Both the position numbers and the translations under genes were made by a program. Positions 1 to 39,772 of a stretch of DNA of 39,772 nucleotides are shown here, one piece after another. Source of the DNA: Candidatus Yanofskybacteria bacterium (GTDB taxonomy: Bacteria; Patescibacteriota; Minisyncoccia; 2-02-FULL-40-12; IGHO2-01-FULL-4-A). Position 1 is the stretch's first letter; each line of letters begins with the position of its first letter. The notes under the pieces were generated by a model. That model had not been told where the DNA came from. It searched no databases and saw nothing but the letters and a program-made list of their open reading frames with translations. Location of the stretch: assembly GCA_016181175.1 (NCBI GenBank), contig JACOZV010000003.1:1-39772 (forward strand), written 5' to 3'.

Positions 1-26
1 CGGAAAGGCGGCGGAGCCGCACGAAT
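1..26. repeat. 26-nt inverted repeat, left copy
   Basis: Positions 1-26 are the exact reverse complement of 980-1005. The core (GCGGC, GGA, GCCGC) is itself a small hairpin, but the match extends into non-palindromic flanks on both sides, so it is a true inverted pair. The two copies bracket the 187-aa gene. The left copy starts on the first base of the window, so its outer limit cannot be seen. Confidence 0.85.
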
Positions 27-1612: not shown

Positions 1613-3943
1613 TTGGAAACACCCGCAAGCAGAGATTTCTTGAAAAAGTTTAAAAAGAGACTTAAAAAAGACTACTGGGTCATAAAGATTAGGCGGCAAC
1701 CGTGGTTAAAGTGGGTCCTGCTCGGATTTTTGTCATTTGCCACCGGCAGTTATTATGCTTTCTATTATTACACCGGCAATATCCCCTTTGTGGGCGATTT
1801 AAATGACGACAATGGCAAACCACTGGATTTTAGCAAACTTGCCCATTCTGATTTTAAAAAGGCATCATATGCTTATGCCTACGACAACAAAACCAAAATC
1901 GGAGTATTCAATGACGAAATAAGAGACCCGCTAAGGGCGAGCGAAATACCCGCTGTTGTTAAAAATGCCTTTATCGCAGCCGAAGATCAAAGATTTTATA
2001 ATCACTCGGGTATTGATCCGCTAGCCATAGGAAGAGCCACCTTTGGAAACTTATTATTTAAGATAGGAATTGAGTATTGGACCAAATCCGGCGCCAGTGG
2101 CATTAACCAACAAGTGGCACGGCGGATTTTTGAAGAAGAAGTTGCTGATTTTAGAAACCGCGCGCCAACATTTAAACGAAAAATAAAAGAAGCACGTGTG
2201 GCCATCAAATTGGACCGTATGTACCCCAAAGAAAAAATACTTGAAGCATCTTTGAATCTGCCATGGCTTGGCAACGGCGCATATGGCGTGGCGGAGGCAA
2301 CAAGATTATATTTCGGTAAAAATATCAGAACCGAGCCCATCAACTTAAGAGAAGCATCAATTCTGGCAAGCTTGAATAAATATCCGTCAAAATACTCCCC
2401 TATTTTCAAAAAACCAGAGGAAATTGATTTACGGCCAAACTCAACAGAAAAAGAAAAAGAAGAATTAAAAAAGAGACACGAAACAGAGTTGGCCATAGAA
2501 AGCGCCCGCTTGATCCAAGCAAAGGATCACTATAATTGGGTTTTAAAGCGCATGGAAAAAGAAGGCTTCATAAGCCGCAGTGACTACACCAGGGCCAGTT
2601 TCAAAAAAGAGGAATCACTCCAGCCGGATGTCATAAAGTTAACACCACTAAAAAATCAGGAATTCGGTTATGGAACAAGGCTGGTTAAAGAAATGCTCAT
2701 GCATGATGGCTACAAGGATGAAGAGATTACGACTTTCGGCGGTCTAAGGATAAGAACCTGCATTGATGCCGATATCCAAAAAATAGTAAATGAAGAAATT
2801 GCCCGCTTACTGGCCGAACTTAACAAAGAAGTGGAAAACCCCGAAAAGCTTCACAACGTGGCAAGCAAAACCAACCCGATTGATGGATCGGCGGTAATGG
2901 TTGATGTAAAAACCGGCTGTGTAACAGCAATAGTCGGCGGACACAACTATTTAGAAACGCCATACGACCGGGCAATGGCTCTGCGATCGGTGGGGTCTGC
3001 TGTTAAACCGTTCGTCTATACCGCGGCATTTGAAGCAGGTAAAACTTTTGATGACACGATCGGCAACTCTCCATTTAGGATGCGCGGGGCCTATGGCAAA
3101 CCGTGGGTTCCAAAAAACTTTAGGGAAGACAATCCGGTCCCTCTGGGCCAAATACCTATCTATGTGGGCCAAATCAGATCAGTCAACCTGCCCACACTCC
3201 GTTTGGCAATGGAAATAGGAATGGGCAAAGTGGTCGATACTATGCATAGGATGGGCATTTGGGGCGTCCGAGGAATAATTAAGGATCCAGGCGGCAATAT
3301 AATATTTCGCATGCCCGGCATTAAAGACACCGGCGATGGCATCATTCCCCTGCTCCCAACCGCCATTGGCGCTTCGGATGTTAATCTTCTGGAACTAGTA
3401 AATGCATATGCGGTGTTTTTCAGAGACGGTTTGTACTTGCCGCCCAAACTTGTTTTGGAAGTTAAAGACCAAGACGGTGAACTGCTTTATCAAGCGCCTG
3501 AATCTAAAACATACAGGTCAATTTCAAAAGAAACAGCCCTAAAAGAATTAATCCTGATGCGCGCAACAACAAAGGTTGGCACCGCAAAAATCTCCATGCG
3601 CAACATTGAACAGCAAGTTGCCTGCAAAACCGGCACCTCCAATAATCCAAATGAAGAACTTGGTGAGGGTCCGGGCGATGTTTCTACTGTCTGCGGCACA
3701 CCGGAATTTGTTATGGGTATAAGAATCGGGCACGATATGCCTAGGCCCATCGTAATTCCTCGCTACATGCAACGTGTCAGTGGCCGTGCAAACATGCAAG
3801 TATCCGGCGGCTGGGTTGTCGGGCCATTAACCAGAAGAATATGGGACAAAATATATACCAAAAGACCAAAGGTTAAATTCCCGCAGGAAGTTGAAACCGG
3901 CTTGCAAGAACTACTGGCGATCTACCCGGATAGATACAAATAA
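1613..3943 (+). CDS. Class A penicillin-binding protein (PBP1-type)
   Basis: Bifunctional peptidoglycan polymerase and cross-linker, 776 aa. A basic cytoplasmic N-terminus is followed by one membrane anchor (about 32-52) and an extracytoplasmic GT51 transglycosylase domain with the catalytic Glu in AAEDQRFYNHSG (E124). The transpeptidase domain has SxxK at S462 (GSAVKPF), SxN at S523 (SVN) and KTG at K672 (CKTGTS). All key motifs are present, so both activities are expected. The start is a TTG at 1613 with GGAG 6 nt upstream. It has its own promoter (1545-1573) and terminator (3949-3968), so it is monocistronic. It builds the wall using lipid II as substrate. Confidence 0.95.
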   Translation: METPASRDFLKKFKKRLKKDYWVIKIRRQPWLKWVLLGFLSFATGSYYAFYYYTGNIPFVGDLNDDNGKPLDFSKLAHSDFKKASYAYAYDNKTKIGVFNDEIRDPLRASEIPAVVKNAFIAAEDQRFYNHSGIDPLAIGRATFGNLLFKIGIEYWTKSGASGINQQVARRIFEEEVADFRNRAPTFKRKIKEARVAIKLDRMYPKEKILEASLNLPWLGNGAYGVAEATRLYFGKNIRTEPINLREASILASLNKYPSKYSPIFKKPEEIDLRPNSTEKEKEELKKRHETELAIESARLIQAKDHYNWVLKRMEKEGFISRSDYTRASFKKEESLQPDVIKLTPLKNQEFGYGTRLVKEMLMHDGYKDEEITTFGGLRIRTCIDADIQKIVNEEIARLLAELNKEVENPEKLHNVASKTNPIDGSAVMVDVKTGCVTAIVGGHNYLETPYDRAMALRSVGSAVKPFVYTAAFEAGKTFDDTIGNSPFRMRGAYGKPWVPKNFREDNPVPLGQIPIYVGQIRSVNLPTLRLAMEIGMGKVVDTMHRMGIWGVRGIIKDPGGNIIFRMPGIKDTGDGIIPLLPTAIGASDVNLLELVNAYAVFFRDGLYLPPKLVLEVKDQDGELLYQAPESKTYRSISKETALKELILMRATTKVGTAKISMRNIEQQVACKTGTSNNPNEELGEGPGDVSTVCGTPEFVMGIRIGHDMPRPIVIPRYMQRVSGRANMQVSGGWVVGPLTRRIWDKIYTKRPKVKFPQEVETGLQELLAIYPDRYK

Positions 3944-4988: not shown

Positions 4989-6542
4989 ATGTCAGTTAAA
5001 TCAAAAGCCGACGAACAAAATCTAAAAACCAACCATTCACCGCGTCCCCCGATTGTGGTTGTTTTGGGTCATGTTGACCACGGTAAAACCTCAATACTGG
5101 ATAAGATCAGGAAAACAAAAGTGGCCGAAAAAGAGGCTGGCGGAATTACACAGCATATCGGAGCTTATCAAGCAGAACACAATGCTAAAAAAATAACTTT
5201 CCTTGATACGCCGGGGCACGAAGCATTCAGTGCGATCCGTTCACGTGGAGCTAAAGTGGCTGACATAGCCATACTCGTCATAGCCGCTGAAGAAGGTGTT
5301 AAGCCACAGACAAAAGAAGCAATTCAAATTATAAAAAAAGCCGAAATTCCATTTATTGTAGCAATTAATAAAATTGATAAAGAGGGGGCTAACCCAGCCA
5401 GAGTCAGACAGGAACTAGCTGAACTAGAGGTACAGGTTGAAGATTATGGCGGAACAGTGCCCGTAATAGAACTATCGGCCAAAAAGGGCAAGGGCATAAA
5501 CGAACTGCTTGAAATGATACAGCTAGTAGCGGAAATGGAAGAACTTTCTGCGCCAATGGACACGCTAGCCAAGGGTGTGGTTATTGAATCGCATATGGAC
5601 GGTCGCCGCGGCTTGGTTGCCACCCTCATTGTTCACGAAGGAGAACTTAAGATAGGCGATTGGGTTTTTGCCGGCAGTGCAACTGGCAGAGTAAAATCAC
5701 TGGATGATTTTCTTGGCAAATCCATAAGCTTAGCCATCGCTTCACAGCCATGCGTAATGCTCGGCTGGGAAACAGCACCAAGAATCGGACAGGAATTCCT
5801 GGTTACTGCCAACAAAGAATCCGCTCAAAAATCAGCCGCGGGTTTAATGCTGGGCGAATCTTTGAATTTATTCGCCAAAGAGATAAGCACCGAAGAGCAA
5901 AAAAACAACAAAAGAACTGCCAATTTAATAATTAAAGCCGATGTGCAAAGCTCTCTGGAAGCCATAGATCAAGTATTGAAAACAATACATTCTGAAGAGG
6001 TTACTTATAATGTAACAAGTTATGGCATCGGATTGATTGGCGATAATGATATTAAAAATGCCAAGGCCACCCAAGCATCCGTAATCGGGTTCCATGTTGG
6101 TATAGACGGTTCTGCAAAACAACTAGCCGAGAGGGACAACATTAACGTCCGGACTTTTGAAATTATTTATGAACTTGTAGAAGCCGCGCGTTCAATCATG
6201 GCCGATCTGCTAGATCCAGAAATTAAACGTATACCACTTGGTAAATTAAAAATATTAGCTACATTTAAAAATACGGGTAAGTCGCAAATAGTCGGCGGCA
6301 AGGTTGTACAAGGCAAATTAGCACGCGGCACAATGATAGACGTTGTAAGGAATGGGGTCATAGTTTCAAATGGAAAACTAGGCCAATTGCAGCACAACAA
6401 GGCCGATGTTGCCGAGGTTAGCGAAGGATTAGAAGCAGGAATAAGGTTTGACATGCAATCACAACCCGCGCCGGCACAATTAATAAGAGAAGGCGACGTA
6501 TTAGAAATTTATCAGGAAGAGAGGATTAAACGAACAATATAA
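4989..6542 (+). CDS. infB: Translation initiation factor IF-2 (short form)
   Basis: GTPase that places fMet-tRNA on the 30S subunit and promotes subunit joining. G motifs are intact: GHVDHGKT (27-34), DTPGHE (73-78), NKID (127-130), SAKKG (163-167). Domains II, III and IV follow. At 517 aa it is much shorter than the usual 700-900, because the long N-terminal extension is absent and the G domain begins about 20 residues in. This is typical of reduced genomes. No Shine-Dalgarno sequence is visible before the ATG at 4989. rbfA follows 28 nt downstream, a common infB-rbfA pairing. Confidence 0.97.
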
Positions 6543-34647: not shown

Positions 34648-34655
34648 GTTAAAAT
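34627..34655 (+). promoter_or_regulatory. Promoter of tRNA-Ser(GCU), inside the topA 3' end
   Basis: -35 TTGAAA (34627-34632), 17-nt spacer, -10 TAAAAT (34650-34655). The spacer differs at about two positions from that of the tRNA-Leu promoter. Predicted start near 34662, 3 nt before the tRNA. Confidence 0.7.
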
Positions 34656-36337
34656 AGGAAAAATGGAGGGGACGCATATCGGCTCGTGCAGAGGTTTGCT
34701 AAACCTCGACCCCGTAAGGGGTCAGGTGGGTTCGACTCCCACTCCCTCCGCAGTATTGGACTGCTCGCGTATAAATGTGCGAGTTGTTCTTTATTTGCGC
34801 TATTTTTGTGAGGTTCTACCCGGCTATGTATTCGCTTTAATTCCTTTGACGCATCTTCAAGATACAAAAGCGGTTTTTCTATGGTAATACTTATCTTTTT
34901 ATCTTTTAGGAGGAGGTCCGACCCTAAATTAGCCAAGATGTTTTTTCTTGTTTCTATCCCGCCATTTTCAAAAGCATCTTTTGCCGTTGTGGCAAATTGA
35001 AACATCTCATCGGCTTTCTTTAGCCATTTGCCTATCCGGTCGCTTGTATCTTTCAGCAGTTCTTCTAGGCGGATTCTTTCTTTGTTGAGGTCGCCCTTCA
35101 TTTCTTTGTATTCTTTGTCTGCTAGTTCTTCGTCAGCGCGCATATTATTAACCCTCTTTATTTTCTCAACGACCGCTTTATACGCCTTTTGGACATTATC
35201 AATAATTTTAGTGATGTTGCCGGCTTCTTTCTTATTCTCCTTTTTATATAAATCTAAAGCCCATTCTGTAAATTCGGGGTAAAGAGCAATTTTGTCTATC
35301 TTTACCCGTATTTGCCTGTTTAACTCTTTTTCCTCAATACATTTTTGGGTGCAATTCGGGTTTTTCTTTTTGCCGCAGTGATAATAAATATAATGGTGGA
35401 CGTTGCCATTTTTCTGCCGCTTGGTTTTTTCTTCGGCTGTTATCATGCCTCTGCACTCACCGCACCTAATCATACCTGTAAAAGCAAATTCGTGGCTTCT
35501 GGGGCGTGGTTTTCCGTCTCGGCCAAGGATTGTTTGTATCTTGTCGTATTCTTCCTCTGCAATCATCGGCTTGTGTATGCCTTTATACCAGTTGCCGCTT
35601 CTGCGAGGATATTCAAACGAGCCGTAATAAAACGGATTGGTAAAAAGATAATAGGTGGCGGTCTTGCTTATTGGCCTGCCGCTAGGCATAGTAAGTCCTA
35701 ATTTTTTGTGTGCTATCTTCTGTATCTGCGGAACGGTATGCGTGCCGGCAAGCATTAGGTCAAATAACTTGCGGACTAAATTAAAGCGTTCCTCATCTGG
35801 TATTATCGTCTTGTCGCCCTTAACAGCATAAGGGTCGTTTTTATAACCTATTGAAGCCGGCGCTGGATAAATGCCGCGTTCAGCTCTGGCGTGTAACCCG
35901 CGCTTAACATTTTGGCTTAAGTCGCGTAGATACTGGTTTGCCATGCCAAATTCTACACTCATCATTAAAACATTATCCGTTGGGTAATAGTCCCTATCGT
36001 AAGCGCGGATATGTTTTATCACTCCCTGTTGTAACATCCAGTTAATACTTCCGCCATCAACCGGGTTTCGGGCCAAGCGGTCTAGTTTCCAACAAATTAT
36101 TCCCTGTGCTTCGCCCTTATGTATTCGTTCTAACATTTGGTTAAAAATCGGCCGGCCCGGCTCTTTAGCCGATTGGGATTCGGATAGTGGTTCGCCTATT
36201 ACTTCTAATCCCTCTTTTTGGGCCAACTTTTTTAATTCGTCTATTTGCGAATCAATGGACAAAACCTGCCGGTCTTCTGATTCGGAAGATTTACGTGCGT
36301 ATAGAAAGTATTTAATTTTCGTTGCGTTAGTATTCAT
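34649..36337 (-). CDS. Large serine site-specific recombinase (integrase)
   Basis: 562 aa. Catalytic resolvase domain (about 8-155) with nucleophile S17 in YARKSSESE and CWKLDRLARNPVDGG; a Recombinase domain (about 170-265, TVPQIQKIAHKKLGLTMPSGRPIS and NPFYYGSFEYPR); a zinc ribbon (CGEC...CGKKKNPNC, about 285-325); a long charged coiled coil (about 340-470). It integrates or excises the element. Its last ~33 residues are the antisense translation of tRNA-Ser(GCU), and the stop overlaps that tRNA's promoter, so the true element-encoded end was probably altered by integration. A pseudoknot-forming leader precedes the ATG at 36337. Confidence 0.93.
   Translation of the reverse strand: MNTNATKIKYFLYARKSSESEDRQVLSIDSQIDELKKLAQKEGLEVIGEPLSESQSAKEPGRPIFNQMLERIHKGEAQGIICWKLDRLARNPVDGGSINWMLQQGVIKHIRAYDRDYYPTDNVLMMSVEFGMANQYLRDLSQNVKRGLHARAERGIYPAPASIGYKNDPYAVKGDKTIIPDEERFNLVRKLFDLMLAGTHTVPQIQKIAHKKLGLTMPSGRPISKTATYYLFTNPFYYGSFEYPRRSGNWYKGIHKPMIAEEEYDKIQTILGRDGKPRPRSHEFAFTGMIRCGECRGMITAEEKTKRQKNGNVHHYIYYHCGKKKNPNCTQKCIEEKELNRQIRVKIDKIALYPEFTEWALDLYKKENKKEAGNITKIIDNVQKAYKAVVEKIKRVNNMRADEELADKEYKEMKGDLNKERIRLEELLKDTSDRIGKWLKKADEMFQFATTAKDAFENGGIETRKNILANLGSDLLLKDKKISITIEKPLLYLEDASKELKRIHSRVEPHKNSANKEQLAHLYASSPILRREWESNPPDPLRGRGLANLCTSRYASPPFFLF
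34665..34750 (+). tRNA. tRNA-Ser(GCU)
   Basis: Acceptor GGAGGGG (34665-34671) pairs with TCCCTCC (34743-34749), G.T at the last pair; discriminator G. Anticodon arm GAGGT-TTGCTAA-ACCTC, anticodon GCT, reading AGC/AGU. Long variable arm GACCCCGTAAGGGGTC; T arm GTGGG-TTCGACT-CCCAC. No CCA. The integrase frame runs through it on the other strand. Confidence 0.95.
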
Positions 36338-37796: not shown

Positions 37797-38585
37797 CTAA
37801 TGCTTTCTATAAAATGCTAATTCTGCCCATATAAACAGGTCTTTTTTGGTTTTATCTTTAATCTTGTCATTAACCATGTGCATTAAATCATATATTAATT
37901 GGCGTCCATGCTTTGGGTCATCTGCTAAATCTGTACCCATCTTTTCCGCCATTATATCCCACGAGATTACTTCTCCCGGGCCAAACCCGAACGCTTCTTT
38001 ACAGAAAGCAAATTGTTTCTTTCCGGCTGGTATTTCTATTTCAAAACTGCCCCAGCGAATACGCGGTGGATTATCTAAAAATTCAGAGGGGGTATTGTTT
38101 AATTTTTCCCGTAGTTCTTTGGGGTTATTAAACTCTACTCCAAGCATTTTAGCTTTTTCCTTTAACCCGGCGGGATTTTTAGCTTCTAAGTAAAAAATTG
38201 TGCCAAATTCGCTGTTAGGTCCGATTTCGGCTACTTCTATTTGGCAAAGTCCGTCTAGCAGTTTGCGAGTGTATGTAATAACCAAATCTTTCTTAACACG
38301 ATTAATATCGTCTTTGGTTATAGGAAATGTTTTGCCTTCAAGATTTGAGTTTGGGAAGAATTGTAGCCAATGCTCACCTCCTTTTGTCATTCTGGCAACT
38401 AATTCCTCGTGGCTTATATTGTCCTCATTTATTATTTCAATTTCGGGGTATGGTGTTGATTCTTCAGCCACCCTTAATTCTACGGGTTTTTTACTCCGTT
38501 TAGATGAATGTTTTAATACCTTACTTAATAAATATTTCTGATAATCAGTTGTTGCCGCGGAGTTTTCCGCTATTTGTAAAAACAT
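37797..38585 (-). CDS. Hypothetical element protein, 262 aa
   Basis: No family recognised. N-terminal third is polar and probably flexible (KHSSKRSKKPVELRVAEESTPYPEIEIINEDN), the middle is mixed alpha/beta, and the C-terminal 80 residues (EVISWDIMAEKMGTDLADDPKHGRQLIYDLMHMVNDKIKDKTKK) could form a winged helix: helix, SWDIMAEKMG, then an Arg/Gln recognition-like helix. That suggests DNA binding but is a guess. No signal or membrane segment. Followed by a strong terminator; separate from the spoVG-like run. Confidence 0.6.
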   Translation of the reverse strand: MFLQIAENSAATTDYQKYLLSKVLKHSSKRSKKPVELRVAEESTPYPEIEIINEDNISHEELVARMTKGGEHWLQFFPNSNLEGKTFPITKDDINRVKKDLVITYTRKLLDGLCQIEVAEIGPNSEFGTIFYLEAKNPAGLKEKAKMLGVEFNNPKELREKLNNTPSEFLDNPPRIRWGSFEIEIPAGKKQFAFCKEAFGFGPGEVISWDIMAEKMGTDLADDPKHGRQLIYDLMHMVNDKIKDKTKKDLFIWAELAFYRKH

Positions 38586-38617
38586 AATTACTTTTTCATT
38601 ACTTATTAAAATGACTT

Positions 38618-38863
38618 TTATAAGCCGGGGTTAAATCTTAGCTTTTTGAAGGGTCTAGTTCGTGTTAATGGTCTGCACCTCCTTATTCTACCCAACAAAT
38701 AGGTCAATTTGCTTAATCCGTTACAAAAAACGCTGGAATCTAAATCCCGGGCATCTAAATATACGCTTTCAAACACGTCTTTAGCGGCTTTTTCATAATC
38801 AGGAAGAGTTATTAACCTTTGTGTCTCTTTTATTTTCTTGGTTTTCTTCATTTCATAATTCAC
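38618..38863 (-). CDS. Hypothetical protein, 81 aa
   Basis: Small, strongly basic at both ends (KKTKKIKETQR and RIRRCRPLTRTRPFKKLRF). No known family. The frame starts at GTG (38863), immediately after a purine-rich AAAGGGG stretch; an ATG at 38851 lies 12 nt after GGGGG and is an alternative. First - strand gene of the element as seen; the preceding 39 nt show nothing I can call a promoter with confidence. Confidence 0.45.
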   Translation of the reverse strand: MNYEMKKTKKIKETQRLITLPDYEKAAKDVFESVYLDARDLDSSVFCNGLSKLTYLLGRIRRCRPLTRTRPFKKLRFNPGL

Positions 38864-39032
38864 CCCCTTTGTTTAGATATAATCTGGCCTAAAATAGCCC
38901 TTTCGTCAATTTTCCGATAGTCCTTTAGGAGGAGGGACATACCCATACCCTTTTAGAATTTTTTATTTTTCAGGAGTTACGGTATTCATTTGCCCCCGCC
39001 CCTCATTTTTCATCCTCATTTTTTCCAGCACT

Positions 39033-39090
39033 AATATATTTATTTATATCTTAAAAATTTAAGTGTGTTTGAGAAAAATACTTTAATTTT
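39033..39090. repeat. 58-nt perfect inverted repeat, left arm
   Basis: Exact reverse complement of 39576-39633. AT-rich. Outside the arms the sequences diverge at once and no target-site duplication is obvious. Confidence 0.95.
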
Positions 39091-39575
39091 AGCCATCAGA
39101 TGATTACCATTAGCCGGCTTTAGAGATATTGTGCCGCTTCGTGGCACTGCGCCGGTGTTTGCAGGATTGCATCGCCCAAAACATAACTTTGGCTTTACCG
39201 CTTAAAAAATATGGATTAAGCCAAAGTTATTGCTGATAACGACCCCTAGAGTAATAATCAAAAAGGAAGCCCGTTTACAGGTGTTATACCTCTCGGGTTT
39301 CCTTTTTGATTTCCTATAAATGATTTTATGAGGTCGTTTTCAGCAGATTTGGGCGATCCGGCGTCTTTGGGGAAGTTCTCGGGGTAAAACCTGCCGAAGA
39401 CCCTTTAGGGTCTTTATTAGCGAATTTTAGCCCGATACGGGCAAGCGAATAGCGCGAGGAACATTCGTGCCGCTTGTCCGTGAAGGTGCTAAAATTCAAC
39501 CTTTAGTAATCGCCGGCTGGTTTTATACCGCTAGTTCCTCCACCAAGCCCTGTGAGTTCAGGCGTAGCCCACTTG

Positions 39576-39633
39576 AAAATTAAAGTATTTTTCTCAAACA
39601 CACTTAAATTTTTAAGATATAAATAAATATATT
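39576..39633. repeat. 58-nt perfect inverted repeat, right arm
   Basis: Exact reverse complement of 39033-39090, 485 nt away from its inner end. Confidence 0.95.
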
Positions 39634-39772
39634 TATTTTGGCCTGATTTTGTGGTATATTTTACCCGTCTACCCATTATTCATTATGCCTGAAGGTGTAA
39701 GCCGCTCGTCTTTCCCGATTTGCGATTAAAGACGGGTGGCTGACCGCCACAAGTCGGACTGCCTTCGGGCAC
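39634..39772. other. Gene-free, structured end of the window
   Basis: No open frame. ACCCGTC (39663-39669) can pair with GACGGGT (39731-39737), competing with CGTCTTT (39708-39714) and AAAGACG (39728-39734). GTGGC/GCCAC forms a small hairpin near 39736-39750. It may be a 3' part of the RNA locus or a second one. The stretch 38864-39032 before the locus shows a pyrimidine-rich run and no clear promoter. Confidence 0.4.

Follow-up and report, generated by a model that had tools for sequence, protein, structure and literature searches.

Long stems flank bacterial rRNA precursors and are cut by RNase III. Among large ornate RNAs, GOLLD and ROOL occur in phage and prophage genomes, in many cases close to tRNA islands, and OLE functions together with a membrane protein (PMC12286853). 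At the DNA level, a review of prokaryotic MITEs describes intergenic, gene-less elements with stable stem-loop transcripts, usually with terminal inverted repeats of 4 to 30 bp and a total length of <500 bp (PMC10969869). Here, we analyze a locus from Candidatus Yanofskybacteria that lies in a window of 39,772 nt (the whole stretch of DNA analyzed). This window opens a contig of 126 kb, one of the seven that make up the 776-kb genome. The locus is real, unusual, and an orphan. The reading that we rank first, tentatively and with somewhat less than even confidence, is that of an accessory module encoding a transcribed, structured noncoding RNA from which RNase III trims the closing helix.

A gene-less locus closed by a perfect inverted repeat

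The locus, hereafter the module, spans 601 bp in total and consists of two arms, complementary at 58 of 58 positions, that enclose 485 nt.

39033..39090: left arm of the perfect 58-bp inverted repeat, 12% G+C
39576..39633: right arm of the perfect 58-bp inverted repeat

These coordinates confirm the initial annotation, which had described a 58-bp exact inverted repeat around 485 nt with no gene inside. Indeed, no open reading frame (ORF) of ≥80 aa was found within the module, where the longest stop-free frame to end has 58 codons; a hidden protein was rejected for want of a credible ORF. The longest inverted repeat in 300 dinucleotide shuffles of positions 38864 to 39772 was 12 bp (mean, 9.4), and the minimum free energy of the whole module is −273 kcal/mol (z = −15.5 relative to shuffles). 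The arm tips are palindromic (AATATATT).

A perfect 58-bp repeat without mismatch is equally typical of a DNA element and of an RNA. Its perfection argues for recency or active homogenization and is, for that reason, the strongest argument against an old RNA helix. The repeat might also have been made during assembly or amplification, given that the genome is metagenome derived and that chimeras can yield perfect inverted repeats. We regard such an artefact as highly improbable, however: the sequence on either side leads into genes that belong to one coherent element, the repeat lies inside the 126-kb contig, and the interior is itself structured.

The module fills a divergent gap in an element integrated at tRNA-Ser

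Leftward from position 38863, the host element encodes an 81-aa ORF, a 262-aa protein of unknown function, a SpoVG-like protein, a helix-turn-helix (HTH) protein resembling replication initiators (it weakly matches phage replication-initiation families), and a large serine recombinase. The closest named relatives of the recombinase come from Patescibacteria metagenome-assembled genomes (MAGs), the nearest being a Yanofskybacteria MAG (79% identity). Rightward from contig position 39864 lie genes for two small putative membrane proteins (predicted as such by eye), an N6/N4 DNA methyltransferase, and an MvaI/BcnI-type nuclease. Since the left genes read leftward and the right genes rightward, the module fills the divergent gap between two operons.

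34649..36337, minus strand: large serine recombinase with Pfam Resolvase, Recombinase, and Zn ribbon matches; the reading frame extends across tRNA-Ser
34665-34751: tRNA-Ser

The host is a tRNA-Ser-integrated element carrying restriction-modification cargo. The module had been placed on an integrated element beside a tRNA; the element does recombine at a tRNA gene, but that gene is not adjacent to the module: it lies at the recombinase end, at a distance of 4.3 kb. No right attachment repeat longer than 11 nt was found, so the right boundary of the element is not fixed. A related element in a second genome (G042) has a similar order of recombinase, HTH protein, and 262-aa homolog, followed by rightward cargo. 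Its divergent gap measures 356 nt and contains no comparable structure; the module is therefore accessory to this element type. The genome carries an RNase III gene (match above the curated cut-off). A consensus scan of positions 38560 to 39772 returned no promoter-like site, where 2.5 would be expected by chance. At the contig start, a separate perfect 26-bp inverted repeat (window 1-26 / 980-1005) surrounds a lone 187-aa ORF of unknown family; this unit has no second copy in the genome.

The rightward operon is preceded by a structured feature of its own.

39663..39772, plus strand: leader of the rightward operon with nested hairpins, truncated where the window ends
39651-39772, continuing to position 5838 of locus L056 (contig C3, ~39838): attenuator-like leader as a whole, with extended −10 element, nested hairpin, and terminator

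The stem region of this leader (L056 5660-5830) folds with a z score of −7.7. The predicted stability of the leader is −74.4 kcal/mol on the plus strand versus −64.5 kcal/mol on the minus strand. Its signals comprise an extended −10 element (TGGTATATT) and an outer stem (CTACCCATTATTCAT/ATGAATAGTGGGTAG), together with a terminator (GGGTAG...CTGCCC-TTTTTT) that overlaps the outer stem and needs the same GGGTAG, making the two mutually exclusive. This layout is attenuator-like and may govern transcription of the restriction-modification operon. The leader has no match in Rfam. It is separate from the module and a candidate in its own right.

The interior comprises two imperfect palindromes with inserted hairpins

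Folding of the interior without its arms is far beyond chance, reaching −201.5 kcal/mol on the plus strand (z = −11.1) and −191.1 kcal/mol on the minus strand (z = −11.1), and no shuffle equaled either value. Approximately 15 interior helices are predicted, several of 11 to 18 bp; the initial annotation had listed at least nine further helices, several of 10 to 18 bp. The main features are as follows.

39131..39147: small hairpin, GTGCCGC-TTC-GTGGCAC
39149..39364: domain A, imperfect palindrome whose left arm carries an inserted hairpin (z = −9.1 on the plus strand, −9.3 on the minus strand)
39183..39230: hairpin with a 13-bp perfect stem, separating two helix segments of domain A that would otherwise be continuous
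39256..39311: hairpin with an 18-bp stem (one G-U), an A-run before it and a T-run after it
39367..39546, plus strand: domain B, imperfect palindrome with hairpins at 39397-39414 and 39422-39497

The initial annotation had proposed a nested multibranch layout with stacked GC-rich helices. The stacked helices were placed correctly, with 39149-39155 and 39171-39182 both pairing with the continuous segment 39346-39364. Nested hairpins are likewise present, but the overall layout is not multibranch: within the arms lie two adjacent imperfect palindromes, each of which largely matched its own reverse complement in a single-sequence profile search.

Domain A is built on three helices (39149-39155/39358-39364, 39171-39182/39346-39357, and 39231-39246/39330-39345). 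Within its near-continuous arm pair, ATCGCCCAAAAC and TGCTGATAACGACC are together complementary at 24 of 26 positions to the uninterrupted right side, and a self-contained 48-nt hairpin splits the left side between them. A GCGCCGG helix lies beside this split pair, set off by a 15-nt insert. So clean an insertion of a hairpin into a helix resembles the accretion of large RNAs, although nested palindromic DNA insertions would give the same look. Helix bounds are sharp, with 13/13, 17/18, 7/7, and 11/12 pairs formed beside wholly unpaired loops. Domain B contains two hairpins, a short one of 7 bp and a long one whose basal stem has mismatches; the predicted stability of the domain is −82.9 kcal/mol on the plus strand versus −72.1 kcal/mol on the minus strand, a difference of 10.8 kcal/mol, whereas the strands of domain A differ by only 2 kcal/mol. 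At imperfect helix positions, nine G-T pairs on the plus strand stand against five A-C, an excess that is not significant. The hairpin at 39256-39311 looks like a bidirectional intrinsic terminator, since the A-run before its stem and the T-run after it give terminator likeness in both directions; a consensus terminator scan missed it because its loop is 20 nt.

The module matches no known family and is present in a single copy

Rfam release 15 gave no match at gathering thresholds across the whole window, and the best match at E ≤ 5 was at chance level (Thr_leader, E = 0.8). GOLLD, ROOL, OLE, HEARO, and group I/II introns were each rejected, none of their covariance models having reached its family threshold. 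Within the reach of Rfam release 15, then, the module belongs to none of the known RNA classes, as had been claimed.

The module and its arms each lack a second copy in their own genome, and a multicopy repeat was rejected on this ground. DNA searches of sampled genomes (8 from the family, 384 from the class, and 380 from the phylum, ~770 relatives that sample these groups) returned no homolog. Weak matches in the class and phylum genomes spanned only 20 to 45 nt, and those in the 380 phylum genomes all fell within the AT-rich arms, none with a partner arm. Two covariance models, each built from one sequence, found only the query over 61 related loci (R1, the model of domain B, and R2) and, for R1, also over the 384 genomes. 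Exact patterns of the module were absent from viral contigs, where neither the 262-aa protein nor the recombinase had a relative, and sensitive blastn with the module found no match in phage and plasmid collections.

These results bear on a close rival, which we consider possible though less likely: a fold-back, MITE-like, nonautonomous DNA element. The arms would be terminal inverted repeats that a transposase supplied elsewhere once recognized, the interior palindromes would be nested fold-back insertions, and the site would be an AT-rich gap of the host element. Consistent with such an element, the module has perfect terminal repeats, no gene, and an intergenic AT-rich insertion point; it is absent from the related element of similar gene order in G042; and it matches several published MITE traits, those of intergenic, gene-less, foldable DNA with AT-rich ends (PMC10969869). 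It is nonetheless found once in its genome and nowhere in the ~770 sampled relatives, and no autonomous transposon sharing its ends was found in its own genome. No clear direct repeat indicative of a target duplication lies outside the arms, but the palindromic tips could conceal one. Arms of 58 bp and a total of 601 bp exceed the usual MITE dimensions (PMC10969869), and the interior is G+C-richer than the host element. Should the module be a DNA element, a very small genome would carry a fold-back insert that is unusually structured.

Repeat-bounded and structured loci elsewhere

In ten Patescibacteria loci, near-perfect inverted repeats of tens of bp to 179 bp bound a segment of ~2 to 2.5 kb that contains or overlaps a serine recombinase gene; in most of these loci, the right arm abuts an apparent tRNA 3′ end.

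L019 3258-5669: repeat-bounded recombinase segment
L021 146-2777: repeat-bounded recombinase segment
L037 115-2763: repeat-bounded recombinase segment
L048 2467-4543: repeat-bounded recombinase segment
L022, L026, L027, L038, L040, and L046: further repeat-bounded recombinase segments

A further rival is that the module acts as DNA: it could serve in the initiation of replication or transfer as an origin, form hairpins in single-stranded DNA, or invert, with recombination keeping its ends identical. Inversion or gene conversion would maintain a perfect inverted repeat, several recombinase relatives lie in or overlap segments with long near-perfect inverted repeats, and the HTH protein of the element has its weak match to phage replication initiators. 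We judge a DNA-level site improbable, however: an essential origin would hardly be expected to be missing from a related element, yet the G042 element lacks such a region; the repeats around the recombinases of relatives are dissimilar in sequence; and the module has no internal promoter-like site for inversion to switch.

Other structured loci were also observed. One family without an Rfam match comprises loci of ~320 to 390 nt closed by 22- to 31-bp inverted repeats (CGCTAGGGCT...AGCCCTAGCG) and occurs in 8 of 61 relatives of the L019 genome, partial matches counted.

L019 182-520: family member
L044 100-490: family member
L040 2359-2747: family member
L118, L119, L120, L121, and L124: further family members

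The closing helix of this family has one compensated change between L019 and L044, and in L112 the edge of the locus adjoins the zinc-ribbon part of a recombinase gene. In L005, a structured hairpin cluster (3060-3390) lies upstream of a 407-aa ORF that by eye is phage replication initiator-like; the recombinase of this element shares 58% identity with that of the module's host. The cluster is unrelated in sequence to the module, and the structured region upstream of the L005 recombinase was rejected as a relative because its sequence is likewise unrelated and neither R1 nor R2 recognized it. A LOOT RNA (RF03000, 74 bits) was detected on a Parcubacteria contig with a related serine recombinase (L013 481-600, minus strand); LOOT was rejected as the identity of the module, the match being in L013 only.

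The module as a candidate structured RNA

For the structured RNA that we rank first, we infer that the module is transcribed, most likely as a noncoding RNA and probably from the plus strand. The two arms would then pair in the transcript as a 58-bp double-stranded helix, and cutting of this duplex by RNase III would free a two-domain core of ~485 nt. The core may act on the element or on its cargo, the downstream restriction-modification operon, through its fold or a bound protein. In favor of an RNA, we count the folding of the interior far beyond shuffles without the arms, the sharp helix bounds (not expected of a uniformly decaying palindrome), and the hairpins that appear cleanly inserted into an otherwise continuous 24/26-bp helix. 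We also count the plus-strand preference of domain B, which is similar to that of the adjacent leader; the RNase III gene of the genome; and an interior of 47% G+C in an element of 38% G+C, with arms of 12%. Against it, the module has no homolog and hence no covariation support, the whole-interior z score is equal on both strands with no significant wobble excess, and the consensus scan returned no promoter-like site in or around it. A closing helix without G-U or mismatch is unusual for an old RNA helix, and the terminator-like hairpin would halt transcription from either side before the end of the module.

A further step, which we hold to be doubtful, is that the module represents a new class of large structured RNA on integrated elements of Patescibacteria, with two accreted domains and an RNase III-cut perfect repeat as its boundary. 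Should the module prove to be an RNA, the few ornate bacterial RNAs would gain a class of ~600 nt whose limits are marked with unusual clarity by a 58-bp helix. It would come from a defense-carrying mobile element and from a phylum in which noncoding RNAs have received little attention.

Comparison with known systems

Like the RNase III-cut stems of rRNA precursors, the module has a long inverted repeat around a structured core and, by this analogy, would be an RNase III substrate. Its core is not rRNA, however, and rRNA processing stems usually contain mismatches, unlike the arms of the module. With prokaryotic MITEs (for example, QMITE2, Correia, and Chunjie; PMC10969869), it shares terminal inverted repeats, an intergenic position, a lack of genes, and foldability; it differs from them in its single copy, 58-bp arms, 601-bp length, lack of a clear target duplication, and G+C-richer, independently structured interior. 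LOOT RNA differs from the module in its length of 121 nt and its structure, and has no match there.

From GOLLD, ROOL, and OLE, the module differs in having neither an Rfam match nor a homolog and in being an RNA by prediction. We know of no 58-bp perfect closing repeat in these three families. The likeness, which we take as a lead only, is one of size and setting: a noncoding locus of ~600 nt with an elaborate predicted fold, carried by a mobile element whose integration site is a tRNA gene and, as a parallel to OLE, with two small predicted membrane proteins encoded downstream.
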